Shown piece by piece: positions 34,990 through 37,124 of a stretch of 64,000 nt of DNA (position 1 is the stretch's first letter; each line of letters opens with the position of its first letter). The translations under genes were made by a program, and so were the position numbers. The notes under the pieces are model-generated. The model did no database searches. It saw nothing but the letters and a program-made list of their open reading frames with translations, and had not been told where the DNA came from. The stretch comes from Anaerophilus nitritigenes (lineage in GTDB: Bacteria; Bacillota; Clostridia; Peptostreptococcales; Thermotaleaceae): positions 1 through 64,000 of the forward strand of contig NZ_RYYS01000027.1 in NCBI RefSeq assembly GCF_004138215.1. Reading direction: 5' to 3'.

Positions 34990-35184
34990 TTAATGCTTCA
35001 CAATTACATAAGACCCATTTTCCAAATCATGAACCATACCCATCGTAATTTTTGAAACCAAAAGAGCAGTTTTTTCCTTTTGTTCTTCTGAATTGGCATA
35101 AAAAACAGGTACCGTTGTAGTAGAAATCATATTTTTATCTGTTGTTACAATGGCAACAATATTTTCCTTAATCCCAAAGTCCAT
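34990..35184 (-). CDS. Capping complex subunit for YIEGIA-type protein
   Basis: A 64-aa protein (MDFGIKENIVAIVTTDKN...) that always appears with YIEGIA proteins in Clostridia and Bacilli, to my knowledge; its name is a database label, not a tested function. No membrane segment or signal is seen; the sequence is a compact alpha/beta pattern. Its ATG overlaps the YIEGIA stop (TAATG), so the two are coupled and probably form a complex. Confidence 0.82.
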   Translation of the reverse strand: MDFGIKENIVAIVTTDKNMISTTTVPVFYANSEEQKEKTALLVSKITMGMVHDLENGSYVIVKH

Positions 35185-36205: not shown

Positions 36206-36236
36206 TAAAAAAACACAGTCCTGTTAATAGGACTGT
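36206..36236 (-). terminator. Terminator of the 33-aa peptide gene
   Basis: An 8-bp stem (36215-36222 with 36229-36236) is followed on the minus strand by a run of seven U. It lies 18 bases after the stop of the small gene at 36255. Confidence 0.87.
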
Positions 36237-36254
36237 CTCATATTTTTGAATATA

Positions 36255-36356
36255 TTATACACACTTTTTATTTTTCTGACTACTTTTATAGTCTCGATCT
36301 ATCTTTTCAAGTTTCTTTAGTATTTTTTTTATAATAAGTATAGTTTTATCATCCAT
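36255..36356 (-). CDS. Small peptide, 33 aa, unknown function
   Basis: A 33-codon frame has ATG eight bases after AAGGGGG. The product begins MDDKTILIIKKILKKLEKID, continues basic and polar and ends in KKCV. The first two thirds form a clear amphipathic, lysine-rich helix (I/L on one face), and there is a single C-terminal cysteine. It has its own terminator and, upstream, a perfect 0A-box core and a sigma-H-like promoter (36382-36425). It lies between phoU and the YIEGIA gene as a self-contained unit. No family recognised. It could be a membrane-binding peptide, a regulator or a small stress protein. Confidence 0.6.
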   Translation of the reverse strand: MDDKTILIIKKILKKLEKIDRDYKSSQKNKKCV

Positions 36357-36381
36357 CTTTTTTACCCCCTTTATTTACTAA

Positions 36382-36425
36382 GTTCGGTAAAAAGTTTAAA
36401 ATTCCTACAAGAATATTTCGACAAA
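36382..36425 (-). promoter_or_regulatory. Candidate Spo0A box and sigma-H-like promoter
   Basis: On the minus strand TTTGTCGAAA (36416-36425) matches the 0A-box consensus. It is followed by AGGAATT (36400-36406), exactly 14 bases and GAAC (36382-36385), close to the sigma-H pattern AGGAWWT-N12-14-GAAT. A start near 36375 would put the 0A box about 42-50 bases upstream and give a leader of about 19 bases holding the ribosome binding site of the 33-aa gene. Confidence 0.5.
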
Positions 36426-36461: not shown

Positions 36462-37124
36462 TTACTTATCTAAATCTTTCATATTATAATTCCCTATTTG
36501 AATATACACTACCTTTTCACATACATTTTTTGCATAGTCTGCAATTCTTTCTATATGAGAACAAATAAATAAAAAGTAGGTAGATTGAGTAATTTTTTTA
36601 GAATCTTCTATCATATAAGTTAATAGTTCTCTATACACTTGCTTATAAATTGCATCTACGGTTTCATCTAAAGTCCAAGTGTATCTAGCCAACTCAATAT
36701 CTTTTTTTACAAAAGCATCTAATGCTTTTTTTACCATATGAGTAGCTAAATCTGCCATTCTAGGAATATCAATAAGGGGCTTGATATATTTTTCGCTTGA
36801 TAATTTAATAGTAATTTTGGCAATGTCTCTAGCATGATCTGCCATCCTTTCTAAATCTGCAATGAGTCTTAATATAGAACAAATCTCTCTTAAATCAATT
36901 GCCATAGGTTGTTGAGTTGCAATTAATTTTATACATTTGTCTTCTATCTCTTCTTCTAAATTATTAATATTTTTATCAAAATCAATTACATGTTGAGCAA
37001 GAGCACAATCTTGATTTTTCAATGATTTAATACTATATAAAATAGATTCTTCTACCATACTTCCTAATTTTAGTAAATCATTATGAAGTTTTGTAAGTTC
37101 TTTAGATAATTGTAATCTTTTCAT
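36462..37124 (-). CDS. phoU: Phosphate transport regulator PhoU
   Basis: A 220-aa all-helical protein made of two similar three-helix bundles, with the metal-binding E/D-rich motifs (ADLERMADHARDIA and HIERIADYAKNVCEKV). It links Pst transporter activity to PhoR signalling and represses the Pho response when phosphate is plentiful. It is the last gene of pstCAB-phoU, 16 bases behind pstB. GGAGG precedes the ATG. Confidence 0.96.
   Translation of the reverse strand: MKRLQLSKELTKLHNDLLKLGSMVEESILYSIKSLKNQDCALAQHVIDFDKNINNLEEEIEDKCIKLIATQQPMAIDLREICSILRLIADLERMADHARDIAKITIKLSSEKYIKPLIDIPRMADLATHMVKKALDAFVKKDIELARYTWTLDETVDAIYKQVYRELLTYMIEDSKKITQSTYFLFICSHIERIADYAKNVCEKVVYIQIGNYNMKDLDK

Follow-up and report, generated by a model that had tools for sequence, protein, structure and literature searches.

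Between phoU and the YIEGIA gene of Anaerophilus nitritigenes, the minus strand carries a 33-codon open reading frame behind what resembles a sporulation promoter, and this locus raises the question of whether so short a frame is a genuine gene and, if so, whether its product acts as the cell enters sporulation. For the stretch of DNA analyzed here (the window, 64,000 nucleotides in full), a sequence-only reading had described a self-contained unit encoding a small peptide, of no named family, induced as sporulation begins. Read in the order of the minus strand, phoU (PF01895; 36462-37124) is followed by a 0A box, TTTGTCGAA (36417..36425), which is a predicted Spo0A~P binding site for which there are no binding data, and by a sigma-H-like promoter, AGGAATT-N14-GAAC (36382..36406, within GTAGGAATT-N14-GAAC), whose conserved GTAGGA starts 8 bases past the 0A box (an N8 spacer). 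A Shine-Dalgarno sequence, AAAGGGGG (AGGGGG, about 36365..36372), which like the two preceding elements was identified by reading the sequence, comes before the 33-codon gene MDDKTILIIKKILKKLEKIDRDYKSSQKNKKCV (36255..36356, with its ATG at 36356 and its stop codon ending at 36255), a call that rests on the open reading frame, homologs, purifying selection, and an AlphaFold2 model. A Rho-independent terminator (36206..36236; stem at 36215-36236 with 8 pairs, ACAGTCCT/AGGACTGT, and a T run) closes the unit, and the YIEGIA gene (PF14045; 35184-36119) and YIEGIA_cap (PF21835) lie beyond. All of the elements that the sequence-only reading had placed here, namely, the 0A box, the promoter, the frame, and the terminator, were found in place. 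The YIEGIA protein and its capping subunit (34990-35184) overlap by one base in this spore-former.

The sigma-H consensus is reportedly AGGAWWW / GAAT, and our assignment of the promoter follows that consensus. The TGTCGAA core of the 0A box (36417-36423) is an established Spo0A site, including for Spo0A of C. difficile (PMC3485338), and it is the only exact core within the window. However, 1.7 such cores are expected by chance per 64 kb, so the 0A box alone proves nothing and the case must rest on conservation. Terminator-like sites numbered 2, versus 0.0 expected from shuffled sequence. The terminator at 36206-36236 is likely shared with the phoU operon; in the relatives G001 and G006, a terminator lies directly 3' of phoU. 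In the window, no terminator was found between phoU (stop at 36462) and the 33-codon gene, and read-through from the pst-phoU operon is therefore conceivable, such that transcripts made under phosphate starvation might, by inference, run into the gene. The description of the unit as self-contained thus held only in part, since no terminator sets it apart from phoU.

The 33-codon frame is a real, conserved coding gene. Relatives of equal length with the same KKCV end occur in G001, of the same genus (55% identical), and in G015, of the same family (52% identical), and a further 33-residue relative is found in a phage contig from IMG/VR. Identity at the DNA level begins just 5' of the 0A box, extends as far as the stop codon, and fades beyond, and TAAAGGGGGT at the Shine-Dalgarno position has the same letters in the window, G001, G015, and phage copies. 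Between the window gene and its relatives, synonymous change is near saturation (pS, 0.67 to 0.79), with pN of 0.24 to 0.26 overall and 0.11 to 0.14 within the helix; for the phage copy, the values are 0.72 (pS) and 0.24 (pN). Purifying selection therefore holds the helix at the codon level. Two outcomes that would have refuted the earlier interpretation, a frame unconserved in close relatives and a lack of codon-level constraint, were examined, and neither was observed.

These data also bear on the alternative that the locus produces a small regulatory RNA in which the short frame is incidental or secondary. In favor of an RNA are the small predicted size of the transcript (about 165 bases), the presence of a dedicated promoter and a strong terminator, and a fold z-score of -3.4, which is partly owed to the terminator. 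Against it, the substitutions obey codon logic. Moreover, the unit common to the window and the phage (36250..36436, minus strand; 187 bases, 72% identical; blastn of phage locus L172 against the window, E of 5e-21) comprises the promoter and frame only, with the homology ending at the stop codon and leaving out the terminator. Identity with a known RNA was rejected, as there was no Rfam match up to an E value of 1. We regard the RNA explanation as very unlikely.

AlphaFold2 predicts that the protein is a single helix spanning residues 3 to 30, with a mean pLDDT of 84 and values of 94 to 95 over the first 20 residues. The helix is amphipathic, with a hydrophobic moment exceeding that of shuffled sequences (p of about 0.02 to 0.05). 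Family members range in net charge from +6 (the 33-residue form, which is cationic) down to -4 (among the chromosomal forms, which are acidic), yet the hydrophobic face of the helix is retained, a pattern that points to binding of a protein rather than to activity at the membrane. By eye, the peptide shows neither a signal peptide nor a membrane span, and no partner gene was evident adjoining the loci. Together with the variable charge and the retained hydrophobic face, these observations favor a cytoplasmic location and binding to another protein. An alternative, that Spo0A-on cells make a peptide which is secreted or acts on membranes, such as a cannibalism toxin, a signal, or an antimicrobial, would be consistent with the cationic amphipathic helix (+6) of the 33-residue form, and Bacillus has killing peptides driven by Spo0A. 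Nevertheless, this explanation appears remote, because a signal peptide or membrane span is lacking by eye, no transport, modification, or immunity genes evidently adjoin the loci, and the chromosomal forms are not cationic but acidic (as low as -4).

The claim that no named family fits this protein was upheld: searches of Pfam and NCBIfam with six family members (up to an E value of 10), of PHROG, and of the PDB by profile gave no credible match. Profile searches, concluding with a profile of 13 members, did reach relatives of 26 to 53 residues that share the core D-x-K/R-T-x-x-I-I/L-x-K-I-L/I-x-x-L-E. The window's own genome encodes one of them as a second copy (G000:C52:118038-118160, MEKLDKRTIEILEKILKLLQNVGDEVEWNSKENNSEDIYLH), which has an ortholog in G001. 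Relatives of 41 to 53 residues occur also in G006, G008, G012, G014, and G015, the longer chromosomal form having a variable C-terminal tail, and a 26-residue form occurs in G011. The longer forms occur widely across the family, and their neighborhood is partly stable; genes which we take to be lonB, an aldo-keto reductase, or a DUF4392-like gene, named by reading the sequence and not by search, often lie near them. Two genera of another family have forms of 51 and 52 residues next to lexA, and the tie of these to the 33-residue form depends on the short helix and on a promoter match that is looser.

With the 13-member profile, a clean gap separated the members (worst E value, 1.6e-9) from noise (best E value, 1e-3). 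The family was present in 8 of the 16 genomes of the window's taxonomic family, and no credible members emerged elsewhere from 391 class-level and 339 phylum-level genomes. Candidates from other families of the class and phylum were weak fragments only, mostly inside long frames, and were taken as chance; weak matches at the order level, with E values above about 1e-3, were rejected on inspection or by frame length, save those confirmed by alignments A4 and A5. The open-licence literature searched contained no paper describing such a gene. We conclude that the family was previously undescribed and belongs to none of the families tested, while in its probable action it would be a known kind of small regulator. 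The second family member in the genome, the 26- to 53-residue family, and the phage and sigK-element copies described below had all been overlooked in the sequence-only reading.

The promoter is conserved to the same degree as the protein. Eleven aligned family promoters share TTTGTCGAA-NN-ATT-NNN-GTAGGA and a downstream CGAA, and the 0A box, GTAGGA, and CGAA columns are invariant; the phage copy also retains the 0A box. The pattern TGTCGAA-N4..30-AGGAWW-N14..16-GAA gave two matches in all contigs of the window's own 3.06-Mb genome, both directly before family genes, and a tighter pattern with up to 1 mismatch gave the same two and no others. Elsewhere, the broad pattern gave 2 matches in G001 and 1 in G008, all at family genes. 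As a control, the pattern was read backwards, giving 1 match (broad) or 0 (strict) in the window's own genome, G000. Because the backwards control also yields a match, the argument rests not on the count but on the placement before two family genes. The same genome encodes Spo0A (422 bits) and SigH (371 bits), and the locus has a feature of the Spo0A-sigma-H regulon, namely, a sigma-H-type promoter preceded at short distance by a 0A box. That Spo0A~P and sigma-H activate the gene is inferred from this promoter anatomy, without expression or binding data. The idea of a small peptide induced as sporulation begins is thus supported by sequence evidence, the induction itself remaining an inference.

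Further promoters of this general type were observed. In the longer chromosomal forms (promoters L086, L085, L016, L018, L048, L049, and L070), TGTCGAA usually occupies the -10 region as another exact copy of the 0A core, one that is missing from the 33-residue forms and that could conceivably serve as a repression site at high Spo0A~P. At three places in G006 (L114, L122, and L126; 1501-1760), identical copies of a 60-residue protein, MGDNDKKVADNSFEASENLKDHVAGAIDKASKGDFAGAAKDAMDAVGDMAQVAGHVVEGN, each follow a different 0A-plus-sigma-H-like promoter, TGTCGAAATTTGCGAGTGG...AAAGGATA...GAGAA. Similar TGTCGAAA-TTGCGA promoters precede other genes in G003 and G017. A contig of Domibacillus antri, of the Bacillales (L106, 42-200), has the exact architecture (0A box, N8, GTAGGATT, N14, GAAT) before an unrelated frame, MDGTSEMDGSITIT...

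Scanning IMG/VR with the promoter DNA pattern identified one contig, IMGVR_UViG_2795385446_000002 (53 kb), in which MDEKTVMIIKKILMKLENRERESEDTITNKKCG stands behind the same promoter. The contig encodes RecT, the small and large terminase subunits, portal, and head proteins, and the 33-residue gene sits just upstream of the terminase small subunit gene. This relative is thus located in a bona fide phage or prophage, whereas the window copy has no adjoining phage genes. No other contig in IMG/VR carried the gene, and none was found in an annotated phage collection; a plasmid origin was rejected, as PLSDB gave no match. Directly 3' of the phage gene (L172, 9100-9240), a second 0A-box/GTAGGAAT precedes a 45-residue frame, MNDEQIKEITIAMINGKQLYSGNSNEETAEKIAEFINTLREKTNE, without a PHROG match.

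The other copies of the 33-residue form occupy different sites. In G015, the gene (1,856,667-1,856,765) lies between the halves of sigK (N-half near 1,862,530-1,862,940; C-half near 1,855,300-1,855,620), inside the element that interrupts sigK, with another stretch of phage homology beside it. The G001 gene is not within the interrupting element but about 270 bases 3' of the sigK C-half, and the 23 bases that follow it match the phage exactly. The elements that split sigK in G015 (L092 and L154) and G001 (L093 and L153) have serine recombinase-like genes, and the C-terminal halves in the two genomes begin at different sigK codons. The window copy lies between phoU and the terminator, while G001 and G006 have the order phoU-terminator-YIEGIA with no peptide gene at that place; the suggestion that the gene would keep its synteny with phoU and YIEGIA therefore failed. 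From the phage, sigK-side, and phoU placements, and from the relatives without the gene, it follows that the 33-residue form, found at three different chromosomal places in three species, goes with phage-like DNA and that the window copy is isolated. The window copy is likely a former phage or element copy that now stands alone, although the direction of transfer is inferred and not established.

These placements also permit the interpretation that the gene is a phage moron serving the phage, for instance by delaying sporulation during lysogeny or by aiding entry of phage DNA into the spore, and that the window copy is a solitary, passively kept remnant. Its location beside the terminase gene in the phage and within the sigK element of G015, together with its occurrence in three species at three chromosomal places, supports this possibility. 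There are precedents in devI of ICEBs1, a sporulation inhibitor of a mobile element (PMC8032392), and in sporulation regulators carried by phages (PMC10294663). However, comparison with the phage copy shows that the window copy is still strongly constrained (pS of 0.72 versus pN of 0.24), and its promoter is intact, indicating that it is not simply decaying. The wide occurrence and partly stable neighborhood of the longer chromosomal forms also speak against the moron interpretation, which we regard as possible but less likely than not.

Known systems offer several points of comparison. In Bacillus subtilis, SinI and AbbA are Spo0A-induced small antagonists of SinR and AbrB, respectively, and SinI, AbbA, and Sda are brakes or antagonists. 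The window protein resembles SinI and AbbA as a small cytoplasmic helical protein whose gene is, by inference, switched on by Spo0A~P, but it differs in having no Pfam or NCBIfam match, no adjacent sinR-like gene, and a sigma-H-like promoter. The SinI, Sda, AbbA, MciZ, and SpoVM families were absent from the matches of six family members to Pfam and NCBIfam up to an E value of 10. In size range and helical makeup, the protein is also like Sda and the Spo0E-like proteins; the 53-residue Spo0E of C. difficile binds Spo0A and represses sporulation (PMC11115286). Membership of the Spo0E-like family (PF09388) was rejected, as neither the peptide nor five relatives matched it up to an E value of 10 and both family loci were absent from the ten PF09388 matches (E up to 10) in the genome, where five Spo0E-like genes above the cutoff lie elsewhere. 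In Spo0E-like proteins, the second helix of the hairpin bears an SxxxD motif, whereas the window 33-mer has no S followed by D four residues on and has one predicted helix. By analogy, the window protein probably works like SinI, Sda, or Spo0E while being homologous to none of them.

Among mobile elements, DevI of ICEBs1 is likewise a small protein acting on entry into development (PMC8032392), but it has 86 residues and is expressed from the element promoter Pxis rather than from a Spo0A/sigma-H promoter. Phages carry sporulation genes, including a truncated spo0A and sigF/sigG homologs (PMC10294663), and the prophage-like element yin can shift the onset of sporulation (PMC10747680). As with these genes and the skin and yin elements, a phage or prophage-like element is here linked to host sporulation; the difference is that the present case involves a small protein of unknown family with its own 0A-box/sigma-H-like promoter.

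We propose that, as the cell enters sporulation, RNA polymerase with sigma-H would transcribe the gene as a one-gene unit activated by Spo0A~P, so that the protein would be present at the onset of sporulation, before division, as inferred from the promoter anatomy. The cytoplasmic, 33-residue, single-helix protein would bind a partner through its conserved hydrophobic helix face. The inferred partner is probably something that governs Spo0A~P or sigma-H activity, and the protein would thus provide feedback or timing at the point where the cell decides whether to sporulate, its target and the sign of its effect being unidentified. Such a role is favored because known Spo0A-linked proteins of similar size are antagonists or brakes and because mobile elements and phages affect sporulation. 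In this proposal the host would retain the longer chromosomal form of 41 to 53 residues, and the short 33-residue form, with the same promoter, would be phage cargo. Taken as a whole, this reading of a Spo0A~P/sigma-H-induced helical protein that binds a partner, tunes entry into sporulation, and is carried in short form by phages seems to us as likely to be right as wrong.

A structural or housekeeping role in division, chromosome handling, or the envelope, in which this would be a small early sporulation protein without regulatory function, must also be considered. Sigma-H and Spo0A drive structural genes as well, and the small single-helix proteins SpoVM and MciZ act on the membrane or on FtsZ. 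However, the patchy distribution (8 of 16 family genomes) and carriage by a phage are more in keeping with an accessory modulator than with a core component, and we consider a structural role unlikely. A bolder version of the regulatory reading, which we offer only tentatively, is that a new family of micro-regulators comprises both a longer protein made by the host and a short phage mimic under the same promoter, with which the phage would read the sporulation signal, compete for the target of the host protein, and reset the decision.

Clostridia do without much of the machinery that sets Spo0A~P in Bacillus, and to our knowledge, the small proteins that tune their entry into sporulation are largely unidentified. 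Genes of 26 to 53 codons are easily overlooked by gene callers; the undescribed family reported here was found through its promoter, and it is coding and conserved. The most unusual part is that the short form in the phage has kept the same sporulation-type promoter, which provides a specific, testable example in which a phage would read, or interfere with, the decision of its host to form spores. The shared gene-plus-promoter unit suggests that bacteria and their phages may both use it to influence that decision.
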